Positions 35,067-48,049 of a stretch of 64,000 nt of DNA are shown here, one piece after another (positions within the stretch are counted from its first letter, which is position 1; every line of letters begins with the position of its first letter). The position numbers and the translations under genes are program-made. The notes beneath the pieces were generated by a model that saw nothing but the letters and a program-made list of their open reading frames with translations, had not been told where the DNA came from and did not search any database. The stretch is taken from the NCBI RefSeq assembly GCF_010731895.1, contig NZ_AP022596.1, positions 2,728,001 to 2,792,000 on the forward strand. The letters run 5' to 3'. The DNA is from Mycolicibacterium helvum (GTDB lineage: Bacteria; Actinomycetota; Actinomycetes; Mycobacteriales; Mycobacteriaceae).

Positions 35067-35161
35067 TCGCTCAGCATAGGGCGCGCAAGCGTCACCCGAA
35101 CCAACGTTTGGGCGAAGAAGCTCGAGAGAATGGCGCTGAAACGTCGATCTCGACGCCGGGC

Positions 35162-35854
35162 CTACTCCGATTCGTCGACGGCGACGGCACCGCGATTGCG
35201 CCGACGCAGCCGGTGGTTCGTCTTTCCGGTCGGGCGCTTGTTACGCAGGCCGCCGGCAGAATCTTCAGGTCCGGCTTCGGTCGACACCTCGACCGTCTCT
35301 TCGATCGCGACGGCTTTTTCGATCGATACGGCCTCGGGCTCATTGGGCTCGCCGGCCGAATCTTCGCCGGACTCGACGGACTCGGCCGTCTTGTTGCGCT
35401 TCGCCTTCTCTTTCTTGGGCTTCGGCGCCTTGGCCGGCAGTTCGGCGGTGTGCGCCAGGTTGTAGGCCAGCAGCGCCAGGACCGCGATGGCGGCGGCCGC
35501 GCCGTAGATCCCGAACAACCATTTCCCGTCTTTGTCCAGGCTGACCCAGATCTCGGCAACCGCCGCCCCGACGATCAATACACCGGCCAGCACGTACAGG
35601 CTCATCGACCACACCCGCAACCGCAGCGCCACCTGTGGTGTTCCGAGCTCGGGCTTACGGGTGCGCAGCAGGGTGGCCAGCACCGGTAGCGCGGCCAGCG
35701 CGATCACGACACCGGTGACGATGCGCAGCACGGTGCCCAGGGTGTGGGACGTGTCGCCCATCAGCTCCCACCACCGGGGCAGGACGAACAGGAAGTACAG
35801 GGCGCCGGACAGTACCCACAACACGAGGTGCGCTGCAGTCGCGGCGGCGCGCAT
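35162..35854 (-). CDS. lucA: Membrane protein, LucA (lipid uptake coordinator) homologue
   Basis: The 230-residue protein has four predicted membrane helices in the first 135 residues (AAHLVLWVLSGALYFLFVLP; VLRIVTGVVIALAALPVLATLL; SLYVLAGVLIVGAAVAEIWV; WLFGIYGAAAAIAVLALLAYNL) and a charged C-terminal tail rich in Lys and Glu. Its position next to tRNA-Ser, the SRP RNA and the aminotransferase gene matches M. tuberculosis Rv3723, LucA, which stabilises the Mce1 and Mce4 fatty acid and cholesterol importers. ATG at 35854 with AGGAGGGG. The name rests mostly on synteny and topology. Confidence 0.65.
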   Translation of the reverse strand: MRAAATAAHLVLWVLSGALYFLFVLPRWWELMGDTSHTLGTVLRIVTGVVIALAALPVLATLLRTRKPELGTPQVALRLRVWSMSLYVLAGVLIVGAAVAEIWVSLDKDGKWLFGIYGAAAAIAVLALLAYNLAHTAELPAKAPKPKKEKAKRNKTAESVESGEDSAGEPNEPEAVSIEKAVAIEETVEVSTEAGPEDSAGGLRNKRPTGKTNHRLRRRNRGAVAVDESE

Positions 35855-35937
35855 GCCCCTCCTAGCCCAGCTCGTCTGATGGCGAAAATCCGAGGTGCGA
35901 CCAGGCGCTTTGATCCCCCGATCGCACCTCGGACAGG

Positions 35938-36026
35938 TGGCGGAGGATAGGGGATTTGAACCCCTGAGGGCTATTAACCCAACCCGCGTTCCAGGCGAGC
36001 GCCATAGGCCACTAGGCGAATCCTCC
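35938..36026 (-). tRNA. tRNA-Ser (anticodon GGA)
   Basis: The reverse strand folds as a class II tRNA: acceptor GGAGGAT pairs with ATCCTCC, then discriminator G and an encoded CCA (35938-35940). The anticodon loop CTGGAAC carries GGA, closed by CTCGC/GCGGG. A long variable arm and TTCAAAT T-loop are present. With CCA the gene is 89 nt. Confidence 0.95.
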
Positions 36027-36123
36027 GTCGGCAATGGTAACCGACTTGGGAAGTGCCTCGCCCCGGCTGCCTGACTCGGGCTGGTCTTGCGGCCTCCGCG
36101 GCGGGCCGGCACCCGGTGGGTAT

Positions 36124-37545: not shown

Positions 37546-39477
37546 GTGGCGCTCTACCGCAAGTATCGGCCGGCAACTTTTGCCGAGGTGGTGGGCCAGG
37601 AGCACGTCACTGAACCGCTGTCGACCGCGTTGTCGGCGCATCGGATCAACCACGCGTATCTGTTCTCCGGTCCGCGCGGCTGCGGTAAGACATCCTCCGC
37701 GCGCATCCTCGCCCGTTCGCTGAACTGCGAGCAGGGCCCGACGCCAACCCCGTGCGGGGTGTGCGGCTCGTGCGTGGCACTGGCCCCCAACGGCGGCGGC
37801 AGCGTGGACGTCACCGAACTCGACGCCGCCAGCCACGGCGGTGTGGACGACACTCGCGAACTGCGTGACCGGGCGTTCTACGCGCCCGCGCAATCGCGCT
37901 ACCGCATCTTCATCATCGATGAAGCGCACATGGTCACCAACGCCGGCTTCAACGCGCTGCTCAAGATCGTCGAGGAGCCACCCGAGCATCTGATTTTCGT
38001 GTTCGCCACCACCGAGCCGGAGAAGGTGCTGCCGACGATCCGGTCGCGGACCCACCATTACCCGTTCCGGCTGCTGGCGCCGAAGACCATGCGCGCGTTG
38101 ATCGAGAAGATCGTCGCCTCGGAGAGCGTCGAGGTCGACGATGCGGTGTATCCGCTGGTGATCCGCGCCGGTGGCGGCTCGCCCCGTGACACCTTGAGCG
38201 TCCTCGACCAGCTGCTCGCCGGTGCGGAGGGCAATCATGTCGCCTACCAGCGCGCCCTGGCGCTGCTGGGTGCCACCGATGTCGCCCTGATCGACGACGC
38301 GGTGGACGCGTTGGCCGCCGGCGACGCCGCCTCGCTGTTCGGCGCCGTGGAGTCGGTGATCGACGCCGGTCACGATCCGCGTCGGTTCGCCATCGACCTG
38401 CTCGAACGGTTCCGGGATTTGATTGTGCTGCAAGCAGTTCCGGATGCTGCCAGCCGAGGCGTCGTCGATGCGCCCGATGACATCCTGGACCGGATGCGTG
38501 ACCAGGCCACTCGCGTCGGCCCCGCGACGCTGACGCGCTACGCCGAGGTGGTGCACGCCGGCCTGGGGGAGATGCGCGGTGCGACGGCTCCACGACTGTT
38601 GCTGGAGGTGGTGTGCGCCCGGTTGTTGCTGCCGTCGGCCAGCGACACCGAGTCAGCACTGTTGCAGCGCATCGAACGCATCGAGACCCGGATGGACATC
38701 TCGATACCCGCCGGCGAGGCCGCGATGAGTTCCGGCGCGCCGGCGGCCGCGCCGGTCAAGCAATACGTACGCAAGACGCAGGCGGCACCGGCCGCTGCGC
38801 AGCCCACGCCCGAGCCGGTTGCGGCGCCCGAGCCCGTCGCTTCACCGGAGCCCGTTGCCAGGCCCGAACCCGTTGCGAGGCCCGAACCCGTTGCCCGGCC
38901 TGCCGCGGTCGTCGAGGCGCCGAAAGCGGAGCCGGTCGTTGAAGCGCCCAGGATCGCGCCGGCGCCGCCGGCGGCACCAGAGCCCCCGAAGCCGGCACCC
39001 GAGCCCGCCGCGCCACCTGCTGCTGCCGTGGGGGAGCCCGGCGCGGCGGCCGTGCGCAGCATGTGGCCGACGGTGCGGGAGAAAGTCCGTGATCGCAGTA
39101 AGCCTCTCTACGCCATGTTGGATGCCGCGATCGTTCGGGCAGTCGATGGTGACACCTTGGTGCTGGGACACCCGTCGGCGCCACTGGCCAAGCGGCTGGG
39201 TGAGCAGCGCAACGCCGACGTGATTCGTGATGCCCTCAAGGACGCGCTCGGCGTGGACTGGCGGGTGCGCTGCGAGGTTGGCGTCGGCCAGCCGGTTCAG
39301 GAGGCCGAGCCGCTGCCGCCGGAGCCCGAGCCGGACCCGGTGGATGCGCAGCGCGCCGAAGAGGACAGCATGATCGCCGAGGTTGGTCGCGACGACGCTG
39401 CGCCGCGGCGCGATCCCGAGGAAGTTGCCCTCGAGCTGTTGCAAAGCGAATTGGGCGCCCGCAAGATCGACGGCTGA
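37546..39477 (+). CDS. dnaX: DNA polymerase III subunits gamma/tau
   Basis: The 643-residue clamp-loader ATPase has Walker A SGPRGCGKTS (41-50), a zinc module (Cys61, Cys70, Cys73, Cys76), Walker B IFIIDEAHMVT and SRC-like TIRSRTHHYPFRL. Domain III is followed by a Pro/Ala/Glu-rich tail with tandem PEPVA units and then a compact C-terminal domain (about 500-600) that should bind the polymerase. GTG start 9 bp after the aminotransferase stop. No slippery A/T-rich frameshift site for a short gamma form was seen. Confidence 0.96.
   Translation: MALYRKYRPATFAEVVGQEHVTEPLSTALSAHRINHAYLFSGPRGCGKTSSARILARSLNCEQGPTPTPCGVCGSCVALAPNGGGSVDVTELDAASHGGVDDTRELRDRAFYAPAQSRYRIFIIDEAHMVTNAGFNALLKIVEEPPEHLIFVFATTEPEKVLPTIRSRTHHYPFRLLAPKTMRALIEKIVASESVEVDDAVYPLVIRAGGGSPRDTLSVLDQLLAGAEGNHVAYQRALALLGATDVALIDDAVDALAAGDAASLFGAVESVIDAGHDPRRFAIDLLERFRDLIVLQAVPDAASRGVVDAPDDILDRMRDQATRVGPATLTRYAEVVHAGLGEMRGATAPRLLLEVVCARLLLPSASDTESALLQRIERIETRMDISIPAGEAAMSSGAPAAAPVKQYVRKTQAAPAAAQPTPEPVAAPEPVASPEPVARPEPVARPEPVARPAAVVEAPKAEPVVEAPRIAPAPPAAPEPPKPAPEPAAPPAAAVGEPGAAAVRSMWPTVREKVRDRSKPLYAMLDAAIVRAVDGDTLVLGHPSAPLAKRLGEQRNADVIRDALKDALGVDWRVRCEVGVGQPVQEAEPLPPEPEPDPVDAQRAEEDSMIAEVGRDDAAPRRDPEEVALELLQSELGARKIDG
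38806..38895 (+). repeat. 18-bp tandem repeat inside dnaX (five units)
   Basis: Five consecutive 18-bp units encode x-P-E-P-V-A hexapeptides (T/A/S/R in the first position). The last two units, starting AGGCCCGAACCCGTTGC, are nearly identical, showing recent duplication. The tract lies in the flexible tau linker, so copy-number change would be tolerated and could serve as a strain-typing locus. Confidence 0.85.
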
Positions 39478-44419: not shown

Positions 44420-45031
44420 ATGTTTGAGGGCCCGGTCCAGGATCTGATCGACGAGCTCGGCAAGCTGCCGGGCGTCGGTCCCAAGAGTGCGCAGCGGATC
44501 GCGTTCCACCTGCTGTCGGTGGAGCCGCCGGACATTGACCGACTGACCGCGGCGCTGGGCAGGGTTCGCGACGGGGTGCAGTTCTGCGAGGTGTGCGGCA
44601 ACGTCTCCGATGCCGAGCGCTGCCGAATCTGCAGCGACGCACGCCGGGATGGGACGCAGGTGTGTGTGGTCGAAGAACCCAAGGACGTGCAGGCCGTCGA
44701 ACGCACCCGGGAGTTCCGCGGGCGCTATCACGTGCTGGGCGGCGCACTGGATCCGCTGTCCGGAGTCGGGCCGGATCAGCTGCGAATTCGTCAGTTGCTC
44801 AACAGAATTGGTGAACGAGTCGACGGAGTGGACATCACCGAGGTGATCATCGCGACCGATCCGAACACCGAGGGTGAGGCGACGGCCACCTACCTGGTGC
44901 GGATCCTCCGCGATATCCCCGGGCTCACCGTGTCGCGCATCGCGTCGGGCCTCCCGATGGGCGGTGACCTGGAGTTCGCCGACGAGCTGACGCTGGGCCG
45001 CGCCCTATCCGGCCGCCGCCAGATGGTCTAG
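44420..45031 (+). CDS. recR: Recombination mediator protein RecR
   Basis: The 203-residue protein has an N-terminal HhH motif ([20 protein letters not shown]), a four-Cys zinc finger ([16 protein letters not shown]), a Toprim domain ([15 protein letters not shown] to [17 protein letters not shown]) and the C-terminal [16 protein letters not shown]. With RecO/RecF it loads RecA at gaps. An inverted-repeat-bounded insertion-like unit begins 6 bp after its stop. Confidence 0.97.
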
Positions 45032-45036
45032 TTCTA

Positions 45037-45099
45037 CGCCCAAACCGACATTTCGCAGCAAAAGTGCGAGTAGATCGCGACATTTCGTCGATCTGGGCA
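45037..45099 (+). repeat. Left arm of 63-bp inverted repeat around the DUF559-like gene
   Basis: Positions 45037-45099 match the reverse complement of 45964-46026 at 59 of 63 positions (mismatches at 45053, 45076, 45078 and 45095). Within the arm, CGACATTTCG occurs twice (45046-45055 and 45078-45087), 32 bp apart, about three helical turns. The arm ends 31 bp before the ATG of the enclosed gene. No direct target duplication is visible outside the arms. Confidence 0.9.
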
Positions 45100-45130
45100 A
45101 GGTGTCAGACCCTGCAGCAACGATGCCGAC

Positions 45131-46012
45131 ATGAGTGAAGTGTTTCTAGGCAGAGAAGCGCTGGCCGACGGCCTGTCACGCCATGATCTACAGCGCTGGT
45201 ATCGACCGATGTTCCGGGGCGTGTACGTCCCGAAGTACGTCTCGCCGTCACTGCGTGACTACGCGTATGGGGCGTGGCTTTACACCGACCGGACGGGAGT
45301 GATCGCCGGCGTGGCGGCGTCTGCGCTCCACGGGGCGAATTGGGTCGACGACGATGAACCGATCGAAGTGCTCGTTAATGAACGACGGCGACAGCCCGGG
45401 CTGATCGTTCGAATGGATCGTCTCGCCGACGACGAAGTCGAAAGCGTCGACGGCCTTCTCGTCACAACGCCATCGAGGACTGCCTTCGACATGGGTAGGT
45501 ACCTCAAGCGCGCAGCGGCGTTGGCGCGCCTGGACGCGCTGACGCGAGCAGCCCCATTCGCAGCCGCGGATGTGGAGATGATGATCCACCGGTACGGGCC
45601 TGTCAGGGGTGTACGTCAACTTCGGGACCTGCTACCGCTGATTGATAATGGCGCGGAGTCGCCGAAGGAAAGCTGGCTGCGCTTGCTTCTGATCGACGGT
45701 GGACTACCGGCACCCGAGACCCAGATTCCGATTCTCGAGGGCGGGGTTCCGATCGCCTTTCTCGACATGGGATATCGCGACCTCAAGCTTGCCTTCGAAT
45801 ACGACGGCGACCAACACCGCAGCGACCGTCGTCAATACGTCCGAGACGTTCGACGTCTGCCGATGATTGAACGGCACGGGTGGGAAGTCATTCGGGTCAT
45901 CGCAGAAGACAGACAAGCTGAGGTGCTGTGGCGGGCGAAGGAGGCTTTTCTTCGTCGAGGTGGTGCCGAGATCGACGAAATGTCCCAATCTACTCGCACT
46001 TTTGCTGCGTAA
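45131..46012 (+). CDS. AbiEi-like/DUF559 PD-(D/E)XK nuclease-like protein inside an inverted repeat
   Basis: The 293-residue protein has an N-terminal AbiEi-antitoxin-like segment: RHDLQRWYRPMFRGVYVPKY, GVIAGVAASALHGANWVDD and GLLVTTPSRTAFDMGRYL. The C-terminal third has a Vsr/DUF559-type nuclease pattern: ESWLRLLLIDGGLPAPETQ, FLDMGYRDLKLAFEYDGDQH, RLPMIERHGWEVIRV. The acidic residues Asp, Glu and Asp of the nuclease core are present. By position it corresponds to Rv3714c. The last 15 or so residues are encoded by the right arm of the inverted repeat. Nuclease activity and any toxin-antitoxin role are inferences. Confidence 0.7.
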   Translation: MSEVFLGREALADGLSRHDLQRWYRPMFRGVYVPKYVSPSLRDYAYGAWLYTDRTGVIAGVAASALHGANWVDDDEPIEVLVNERRRQPGLIVRMDRLADDEVESVDGLLVTTPSRTAFDMGRYLKRAAALARLDALTRAAPFAAADVEMMIHRYGPVRGVRQLRDLLPLIDNGAESPKESWLRLLLIDGGLPAPETQIPILEGGVPIAFLDMGYRDLKLAFEYDGDQHRSDRRQYVRDVRRLPMIERHGWEVIRVIAEDRQAEVLWRAKEAFLRRGGAEIDEMSQSTRTFAA

Positions 46013-46026
46013 TGTCGGTTTGGGCG
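45964..46026 (-). repeat. Right arm of 63-bp inverted repeat around the DUF559-like gene
   Basis: Mirror copy of 45037-45099 (59/63). It overlaps the last 49 bp of the coding region, including its stop, and extends 14 bp past it, ending 8 bp before the gatD stop. The unit bounded by both arms is 990 bp and almost fills the space between the convergent recR and gatD genes. Confidence 0.9.
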
Positions 46027-46034
46027 CAGAGGGA

Positions 46035-46751
46035 TCAAGCGCGGCGGGGGGCGGCCAGCCGCTCGCGGCGCAACTGCTCGACCTCGGTCAGCTCCAGCGG
46101 CTCCAGCGGCCCGACGACGCGCGACAGCAGCAGATCCGCCAGTTCGGGGTTGCGCGCCAGACACGGGCCGTGCAGATAGGTTGCGACCACGCTGCCCTGC
46201 ACCGCACCGTCGTAGCCGTCGCCTGCGCGGTTGCCCGCGCCCTTGACCACCGCAGCCAGCGGCCGCGCATCCGGTCCCAAAACCGTTCCACCACGGTGAT
46301 TCTCGAAGCCCGTCAGCGCAAGCGTCATACCGTCGACCAATGGAGTGGACACCACTTCGCCAATGGTCCGGCTGGCCTGCGGGGACGTCGTCACATCGAG
46401 CAGGCCGACACCCTCGACCCGCTCGCCGGCCGACGTCTCGTACCAGTGACCCAGCACCTGAATCGCCGCGCAGATCGCCAGCACCGGAGCGCCGCGGGCC
46501 GCAGCGCGCTGCAAACCCTGATGGGTCAGAAGATGTTTGGTAGCCAGTCGCTGCGCGTAGTCCTCGGCGCCGCCGAGGGTGTAGAGGTCCAGCGAGTCGG
46601 GCACCGGGTCGGCCAGCGTGATCTCGACGATCTCGGCGGCAATCCCGCGCAGCCGCAACCGCTGTCGCAGCACGACGGCATTCCCACCGTCACCGTAGGT
46701 GCCCATCACGTCGGGCAACACCAGCCCAATCCGTACCGTTGAATCCGTCAT
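46035..46751 (-). CDS. gatD: Lipid II isoglutaminyl synthase, glutaminase subunit GatD
   Basis: A 238-residue CobB/CobQ-type class I glutamine amidotransferase. Nucleophile Cys94 in PVLAICAAIQVLG, His194 in TYLHGP. With MurT it amidates the D-glutamate of lipid II to D-isoglutamine, needed for peptidoglycan crosslinking. The ATG at 46751 overlaps the murT stop (ATGA), and this choice gives the family N-terminus VRIGLVLPDVMGTYGDGGN. Often misnamed cobyric acid synthase (CobQ2). Confidence 0.95.
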   Translation of the reverse strand: MTDSTVRIGLVLPDVMGTYGDGGNAVVLRQRLRLRGIAAEIVEITLADPVPDSLDLYTLGGAEDYAQRLATKHLLTHQGLQRAAARGAPVLAICAAIQVLGHWYETSAGERVEGVGLLDVTTSPQASRTIGEVVSTPLVDGMTLALTGFENHRGGTVLGPDARPLAAVVKGAGNRAGDGYDGAVQGSVVATYLHGPCLARNPELADLLLSRVVGPLEPLELTEVEQLRRERLAAPRRA

Positions 46752-48049
46752 TGCATCCGCCCCAAAGCGCGCGTCAGCTGCAGGAAAGCGGTGTAGTTCG
46801 CCACCACCTCGACGTGCCCCTTCGGGCATGACTTGATCGCATCAATAGTGTTGTGCACCAACGTATGCGGCACACCGGCATAGCCCAGCCGCACCGCCAG
46901 ATCGGTTCCGCGCTCCCCGGCGGCCACGACGGGGACACCCTCGAAATGCTCGAAGTTGACGTCCCACAGCCACGACAGGTCTTCACCGTCGGGTACCTGA
47001 CCGTTGACCGAAATCACCACCCCCTGCGCGGTGGCGTCGACCATCGACAGCGCCTCTTGCCACCCGGCCGGGTTCTTGGCCAGCAGGATGCGCGCGGTGT
47101 GCTCGCCCACCGGCACGGTCTGGTAGCGGCCGGCGACCTCGTCCACCGTGGCGACGGCGGCCACTGCCGCAGCGGGATCCGCGCCCAGCGCGACTGCGGC
47201 CGCCACAGCCTGAGTGGCGTTGCCTCGGTTGACCTTTCCCGGCAGCGACAGTCGCATCGGCAGCTCGAGGCCGTCTGGCCCGTAGATCTTCGCGTCGTCG
47301 TACCACCACTGCGGATCAGGGCGCTTAAAGGACGCAGGGCCGCCGGGCCCGACATTGGGATCCGTTCCTGTCGAGTACCAGTGCGAGTGGTCGCGCACGA
47401 TCACCTCGCCGCTACGCGGGCAGCTGACCGAGTCGTTGGCCCAACCAGCGCCGGCAGCCACCCACACCACGCGAGGGCAGTCGTAGGCCGCCGAGGTCAT
47501 CAGTACGTCGTCACAGTTGGCGACGATGATCGCATCGGGGTGACGGGCCAAGCCGGCGCGCAGGGTGCGCTCGATGTGGTTGATCTCACCCACCCGGTCC
47601 AGCTGATCGCGCGACAGATTCAGTAGCACGATCACCGCGGGGTCGACCGCATCGGCGACGTGCGGGACGTGCATCTCGTCGACCTCGAGCGCGGCCAGCG
47701 ACGCGTCGCGGGAGCCGGCCAGCGCGGCCACCAGGCCAGCGTCCATATTGGCGCCCTCGGCATTGGTGGCGACGGTCTGATGTCGTCGCCCTTGCGGCTC
47801 GACCGGGCCGATGGTGGCCAGCGCCGCTGCCGTCATCCGGGTGGTAGTGGATTTGCCGTTCGTGCCGGTCACGACGACAGTGCGACGGCCGGCGCCGAGT
47901 TGACGCAGGATCGAGCGATCCAGGGTCATCGCGACCAGGCCACCGATCATGGCGCCGGCACCGCGTCCGGTCGCCCGGGAGGCCCAACGCGCGGCGGAAC
48001 CAGCGGCCAGCGCAGCGCGGCCCCGCAGTGTCATCGTCGGCTTGGGCAT
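46748..48049 (-). CDS. murT: Lipid II isoglutaminyl synthase, ATP-binding subunit MurT
   Basis: A 433-residue Mur-ligase-family protein with P-loop VVVTGTNGKSTTT (Lys66), ALEVDEMHVPHV in the central domain, and a C-terminal DUF1727 region (DVNFEHFEGVPVVAAGERGTDLAVRLGYAG). An inserted segment with cysteines (NCDD, YDCPR, SCPRSGE) is the remnant of the zinc ribbon found in other MurTs. It activates the lipid II D-Glu carboxylate with ATP for GatD-derived ammonia. First gene of the murT-gatD pair, divergent from dnaQ. Confidence 0.95.
   Translation of the reverse strand: MPKPTMTLRGRAALAAGSAARWASRATGRGAGAMIGGLVAMTLDRSILRQLGAGRRTVVVTGTNGKSTTTRMTAAALATIGPVEPQGRRHQTVATNAEGANMDAGLVAALAGSRDASLAALEVDEMHVPHVADAVDPAVIVLLNLSRDQLDRVGEINHIERTLRAGLARHPDAIIVANCDDVLMTSAAYDCPRVVWVAAGAGWANDSVSCPRSGEVIVRDHSHWYSTGTDPNVGPGGPASFKRPDPQWWYDDAKIYGPDGLELPMRLSLPGKVNRGNATQAVAAAVALGADPAAAVAAVATVDEVAGRYQTVPVGEHTARILLAKNPAGWQEALSMVDATAQGVVISVNGQVPDGEDLSWLWDVNFEHFEGVPVVAAGERGTDLAVRLGYAGVPHTLVHNTIDAIKSCPKGHVEVVANYTAFLQLTRALGRMQ

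Follow-up and report, generated by a model that had tools for sequence, protein, structure and literature searches.

What is a nuclease-like gene doing between the arms of an inverted repeat, in the gap between recR and a gatD-like gene of Mycolicibacterium helvum? The locus lies in a stretch of 64,000 nucleotides (contig NZ_AP022596.1, positions 2,728,001 to 2,792,000; hereafter the window, whose own numbering is used below). An earlier note on this DNA had described the repeat and suggested a minimal mobile cassette whose nuclease acts on its own ends. We give a probability of roughly 0.7 to the following answer: the window holds one master locus of a nuclease-palindrome system with cognate dispersed elements, which is convergent with repetitive extragenic palindromes (REPs) and their REP-associated tyrosine transposases (RAYTs) and is built around an unrelated enzyme. 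The gene belongs to a large, apparently undescribed nuclease-like family, many members of which lie between two copies of their own 61-bp palindrome.

A repeat search placed the inverted arms at 45033-45099 and 45964-46030 (67 nt, 62/67 identical, 93% complementary). Over the 63-bp pair marked in the earlier note (45037-45099 and 45964-46026), 59 of 63 positions are identical. As described there, the arms enclose a single gene, an intact open reading frame (ORF) of 293 aa on the plus strand (45131-46012), and the right arm encodes its last 15 or so residues and the stop. Within each arm lies a 61-bp palindromic element. The upstream element (45038-45098, minus strand) consists of a 21-bp half, a 19-nt spacer with the minus-strand core ACTCGCACTTTTG, and a second 21-bp half. 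The downstream element (45965-46025, plus strand) overlaps the end of the gene. Both are matched by R1, a covariance model made from 30 sequences, with the window arms left out and the arms of the close orthologues L015 and L016 included (51.9 bits, E 2.7e-11 upstream; 52.1 bits, E 2.4e-11 downstream). Each window arm taken alone is a decayed palindrome, with Watson-Crick pairs at 12 (upstream) and 11 (downstream) of the 21 stem positions.

Elements of this kind, class (i), are 61 bp long and have two inverted 21-bp halves around a 19-nt spacer with the core ACTCGCACTTTCG. In 67 elements picked solely by their 13-nt core, the halves pair from position 0 through 20, with a sharp end after 20. 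Across 30 sequences, 86.3% of the stem cells are paired vs. 65.7% after shuffling and 31-42% in slid controls, and there are 149 double changes vs. 53.6 in the shuffles. Class (i) and class (ii) elements both align without gaps, partly by construction because each piece had been trimmed to the 61 nt around its core; evidence for the constant spacing comes from the pairing tests and from the lengths of the R1 matches, nearly all 61 (a few 51-63). The pairing may reflect either a hairpin or a duplex site with two-fold symmetry. In 34 units (a family gene with its flanks) that have recognizable cores, whole 61-bp elements lie on both flanks, as they do in the window. With respect to the gene these cores can face either way (21 ++, 8 -+, 4 --, 1 +-; direct in 25/34), an argument against an RNA element coupled to transcription.

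Such pairs are common in the family. The first sample comprised 98 units (nine own-genome matches, 29 loci, and 60 picked among the matches listed), seven of them incomplete, leaving 91. Upstream and downstream flanks are alike at a score of at least 40 in 49 of these, compared with 211 of 8,190 mismatched pairs. The second sample came from another scan, made on named genomes, and added 59 units outside the first 98 (21 of 80 loci were incomplete or already sampled); it gave 36/59 vs. 129/3,422 at a score of 40. The contrast is conservative, because orthologues sit among the mismatched pairs. In both samples together, 85 of 150 units are flanked by a palindrome pair of their own, each arm about 61 bp, with a stem that is mostly unit-specific. 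The arm score of the window unit, 109, exceeds every between-unit score (n = 1,332). Within the M. helvum genome, clear pairs surround four of seven intact members (L005, L007, L010, L011) and the fragment L012. Outside the genus, at a score of at least 36, 11 of 25 units are paired, compared with none of 600 mismatched pairs. Arm pairs were seen in Tsukamurella tyrosinosolvens (two loci) and Arthrobacter sp. StoSoilB13, and none was found at a Nonomuraea locus. The paired units outside the genus had no match to the mycobacterial model R1, and four genomes of other genera had none at 1e-11. Arms around paralogues, more alike within a unit than between units, are what the earlier note had predicted. 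Its proposed genome search with one arm returned only four places: it misses the general 61-bp design with unit-specific sequence and undercounts the family because stems vary from unit to unit. Hybrid arms, with an outer half like the single copies and an inner half like the cassette, were suggested by L061; the pattern was not general and was dropped.

The gene family itself is widespread. The M. helvum genome has seven intact members including the window gene, the other six at 39-48% identity, and two fragments. Matches occur in all 60 sampled genomes of the genus (2 to 18 each). When the wider order was searched with the family alignment at 1e-20, matches came from 67 of 81 genomes and from 36 of 41 genera. 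The window gene has PADLOC matches and weak Pfam matches to MTES_1575, DUF559, and AbiEi_1, all below the gathering cut-off. Among 46 members scanned at E 0.01, MTES_1575 was matched in 37, DUF559 in 26, AbiEi_1 in 10, and DUF7030 in one; neither Transposase_17 nor any other transposase family was among the matches. The AlphaFold model of the window protein (pLDDT, the predicted local distance difference test, 91.3) and structural matches predict an AbiEi-like winged helix followed by an EDxHD-like (I-Bth0305I/Vsr-like) nuclease domain. In the model a recognition helix spans residues 17-23 and wing strands span 24-28 and 31-34 (residues 17-34 are encoded at 45179-45232, plus strand). The predicted nuclease domain (residues 175-278; 45653-45964, plus strand) contains E180, D212, H229, and D239, which are invariant in 46 aligned family sequences and probably correspond to the residues of the EDxHD motif. 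Structural matches and invariant residues both agree with the EDxHD fold. A profile search of PDB sequences found no credible relative.

A protein of this composition might instead be an orphan defense or toxin-antitoxin gene, an AbiEi antitoxin fused to a nuclease, with the arms as insertion scars. We consider this quite improbable. An AbiEii partner is absent beside the window gene, whose neighbors are recR and the gatD-like gene, and to our knowledge dispersed cognate palindromes are not a feature of AbiE.

The stem of the palindrome varies together with one part of the protein. In a partial Mantel test on 42 units that controlled for the remainder of the protein, stem distance correlates with distance over residues 1-50 (partial r 0.43, p 2e-4), and the other 50-residue windows give -0.10 to 0.19. 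In 35 new units the value is 0.51 (p 2e-4), with -0.20 to 0.26 for the other windows. Individual residues follow the stem as well. Residues 17, 18, and 30, which fall in the modeled recognition helix (17-23) and wing (24-34), were chosen on the first set of units and tested on the second. E17 is accompanied by a GCG/CGC inner stem in 8/8 units of the first set and 3/3 of the second, i.e., 11/11 vs. 7/66 of units without E17. R17 goes with GCAG/CTGC (29/32, then 22/29), N30 with ATTCC (8/10, then 3/3), and S18 with TTTCAC (4/4, then 3/4). Neither the Mantel nor the residue statistics are corrected for the tree, and shared ancestry stays in them. From this coupling of stem and N-terminal winged helix we strongly infer that the nuclease recognizes its own palindrome. 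The earlier idea of a nuclease acting on its own ends thereby gains support for recognition, but not for cleavage.

Copies of the palindrome also lie dispersed, away from any family gene. R1 matches 18 places in the M. helvum genome at E<1e-3, two of which are the window arms; further copies elsewhere had been expected. At 0.001 it has matches in 56 of 60 genomes, with some palindromes counted on both strands and unit arms included. Distinct places were counted for M. helvum and for G037, which has 53, at least two of them unit arms; in both genomes gene-less single palindromes make up most copies. The proposal of a minimal mobile cassette is partly supported, by the paired arms, the empty sites described below, and the additional copies, but in these two genomes most copies carry no gene, an outcome that the earlier note had named as telling against a cassette. 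When set side by side with the arms of resident units, single copies are alike in six genomes (G049, G013, G027, G021, G053, G033). The stems of single copies resemble the resident units, and for this reason REP-RAYT systems are a better comparison than an insertion sequence.

The association with resident units also appears in rankings and counts. When 47 genomes were ranked by how well their sampled units fit the single copies of a given genome, the home genome came 1, 1, 1, 2, 2, 4, and 4, and M. helvum came 9. This ranking left out the window arms (L156, L157), the 51-bp L170, the weak L173-L176, and the known unit arms L188, L211, L215, L216, L226, and L229; the remaining singles may include arms of unsampled units. 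It is support rather than proof, because related genomes have families in common. The median number of R1 matches, arms included, is 23 in 31 genomes with a sampled class-(i) unit and 8 in the other 29. The four genomes without R1 matches have 6, 9, 4, and 6 class-(ii) matches, some of them arms, and no class-(ii) match was found in G000, G037, or G022. Unit-flanking places account for two of six in G026 and two of four in G046.

Single copies sit at the ends of genes. Of 46 examined, 43 have the 3′ end of a gene on at least one side; with stop codons located by a codon-position heuristic, the median distance to them is 8 bp. Two single palindromes in G004 (L334 and L337, C1:4169135 and 4169298) lie 163 bp apart in the same orientation and recall REP doublets. 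The 24 copies that lie between convergent genes, a raw count, are what bidirectional terminators favored in such gaps would give, with a nuclease gene flanked by chance. We regard this explanation as highly improbable. A common stem is far more frequent between the two arms of one unit than between arms taken from different units, winged-helix residues go with the stem, and the stem halves keep a fixed spacing around a conserved spacer core.

Comparison between species shows that both single palindromes and whole units turn over. The L153 palindrome is present in M. helvum, and the aligned gene end lacks it in G043, G004, G024, and G053. By eye, G018 has part of a window-type element at this site, and the poorly aligned G009 row was not used. 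One tip of the L153 palindrome overlaps the final codons and stop of the host gene, which hints at similarity to the target. The L167 site has a single decayed palindrome in M. helvum and a unit in G053 (L031) and G004 (L043), with flanks 86-89% identical on both sides; the L031 arms are near-identical and the upstream arm of L043 is truncated. The recR-gatD gap is likewise variable, with the empty sites that the earlier note had predicted. Among 41 genomes, a unit is present in 17 (18 with G018), a fragment in one, and a palindrome without a unit in G010, G031, and G017; gaps are as short as 9 bp. G018 was tallied as having no unit only because the contig stops at this point (the unit is L014); contig ends truncate some other loci too. 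In G053 the unit is of a different type, 54-56% identical and with a different stem, beside a RecR that is 98% identical. Orthologues of the window gene at this position are 82-83% identical in G043 and G009, where RecR is 98-99% identical; the gene is evolving faster than its neighbor. The G043 orthologue (L104) is split over two frames, residues 1-143 and 142-293, probably by a frameshift. In G024 (L107) recR and the unit are separated by an EAL-domain gene, and L105 (G053) and L109 (G004) look the same, by eye only. An apparent inversion of the gene at recR-gatD proved to be an artefact of loci not oriented to the match.

The variable occupancy of recR-gatD, the single gene between like arms, and the dispersed copies would also suit an ordinary transposon or a miniature inverted-repeat transposable element (MITE) whose arms are terminal inverted repeats moved by another transposase, with the nuclease as cargo. 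At recR-gatD in G020, moreover, a metallo-beta-lactamase-superfamily gene lies between two class-(i) palindromes, beside a DUF559-family fragment (L149). This explanation is nevertheless improbable. The arm sequence tracks the N-terminus of the family protein, the Pfam matches of the 46 members include no transposase, and the cores of most arm pairs are direct rather than inverted. A search with the window protein matched none of 50,697 phage records and six of 72,556 plasmid records, the six being non-mycobacterial and all below 37% identity.

In the mechanism we propose for the nuclease-palindrome system, a dimer of the protein would most likely sit on its own 61-bp palindrome, each 21-bp half being read by a winged helix and the nuclease domains being positioned over the 19-nt spacer. 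Specificity would differ among paralogues, over half of those examined being bracketed by two of their own sites. Single copies may arise and turn over through the nuclease, by a cut near the spacer and then copying or recombination between palindromes, and recombination between the arms of a unit would leave one palindrome behind.

Several results weigh against this reading. Once residues 1-50 are allowed for, the remainder of the protein is still weakly correlated with the stem (partial r 0.14, p 0.01), and the predicted inner stem is missing in 7 of 29 (24%) new R17-type units. A strong pair is lacking in 42/91 and 23/59 units, including three of the seven intact members in M. helvum (L006, L008, and L009, weakly paired); we assume that the unpaired units reflect decay or other designs. 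Only 16 of 71 single copies (0/29 in G037, 2/17 in G000) find their best or joint-best fit in a unit of the home genome, because similar or better-kept stems exist in other genomes. Among nine orthologous pairs of single copies, two keep the stem and have the spacer inverted (L189/L213, L217/L219), as if the segment between the 21-bp halves had been flipped or the element re-inserted, and in three the stem family differs (L161/L228, L199/L328, and L175/L185, in which L175 is a weak match). Given these flipped spacers and swapped stem families, a simple copying model falls short. No intermediate was seen, and the one aligned presence/absence site, L153, shows no clear target-site duplication. 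Finally, the 29 single copies fetched from G037 differ by a mean of 4.2% pairwise in their stems and by 36.8% in their spacers, which is odd for recent copying of whole elements.

That conservation of the stem far above the spacer also fits an operator system, in which an AbiEi-like regulator would bind palindromes, silencing its own gene and, at single copies, blocking or terminating the transcription of other genes at their 3′ ends, with a secondary or inactive nuclease domain and immobile elements. The coupling of stem and winged helix would be expected of such a regulator, as would the placement of nearly all single copies at gene ends. In paired units the upstream arm mostly ends 20-90 bp ahead of the start codon, often near 30, where an operator might lie. 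The second arm, however, is at the stop codon rather than at a promoter, and the core may face either way relative to the gene. The four putative catalytic residues are invariant, and elements and units vary between species at the same sites. We therefore consider the operator system possible but unlikely, and continue to favor a nuclease that recognizes its own palindrome.

The remaining features of the window can be dealt with briefly. The left neighbor of the unit is recR (44420-45031, plus strand; NCBIfam recR, 268 bits, above the cut-off). On the right is a gatD-like gene (46035-46829, minus strand, with a provisional start). The placement between recR and gatD given in the earlier note is accordingly secure on the left, but the right-hand product is only GatD-like (NCBIfam GatD, 120 bits, below the cut-off). 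A weak gene-less single element lies at 35095-35154 on the minus strand (R1 23.7 bits; E 7e-4 for the window, 0.07 for the whole genome), 7 bp past the stop of an ORF on the same strand (35162-36112). A tandem repeat with an 18-bp period and about five copies occupies 38806-38900.

Beyond this locus, we lean toward the view that across Actinomycetes the AbiEi-EDxHD nucleases form a second, independently evolved equivalent of REP-RAYT, in which residues of the winged helix would read the 21-bp half-site by a code, a private palindrome family would be maintained and spread in the gaps at gene ends, and specificity would diversify together with the elements. If true, this would give a testable role to a gene family matched in all of the sampled mycobacterial genomes and account for one kind of palindrome found where mycobacterial genes end. 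The REP-RAYT arrangement would have evolved twice, with unrelated enzymes, and the units would form a natural panel of proteins paired with 61-bp sites for reading a winged-helix recognition code.

No known family has all of its defining features in the window system. An EDxHD homing endonuclease gene typically sits inside its own target and so protects it. Here the gene lies between two whole sites, each uninterrupted, cognate palindromes are dispersed, and an AbiEi-type winged helix precedes the nuclease, unlike in I-Bth0305I or Vsr. I-Bth0305I, described with the EDxHD family, is reported to dimerize on nearly 60 bp (PMC3943268). The AbiEi antitoxin (6y8q) and Rv2827c (1zel) differ from the window protein, in which the winged helix is fused to a nuclease domain, and unlike in AbiE there is no adjacent AbiEii toxin gene at the window locus. 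Myt-1 and Myt-8, stem-loop repeats of 72 and 92 bp in Mycobacterium tuberculosis, are likewise dispersed structured repeats in a mycobacterium; the parts of PMC2267715 consulted tie no gene to them. They may be earlier sightings of such elements, a likeness by description, not by sequence. Open-licence papers, supplements aside, yielded no link of DUF559 genes to palindromes or mycobacterial repeats.

The logic of the system as a whole resembles that of REP-RAYT. The portions of PMC2817692 that we draw on describe RAYT genes as flanked by two REPs, coevolving with them, evolving fast, and correlating with the abundance of cognate REPs, which are extragenic. Here, too, two palindromes flank the gene, the gene evolves faster than its neighbors, its presence goes with the abundance of cognate palindromes, and these are extragenic. 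The paired arrangement is found in 85/150 units, but mostly with direct (25/34) rather than inverted cores. Genome-wide cognate palindromes are present within the limits of the home-genome ranking, and coevolution of enzyme and palindrome is seen in the partial correlations of 0.43 and 0.51, uncorrected for the tree. The RAYT enzyme is an HUH protein (Transposase_17, PF01797, as named in PMC2817692), whereas the enzyme here is AbiEi-EDxHD-like, with Transposase_17 in none of 46 members, and the element is a 61-bp, actinobacterial one with a 19-nt spacer. The window system resembles REP-RAYT in how it works but does not belong to it.
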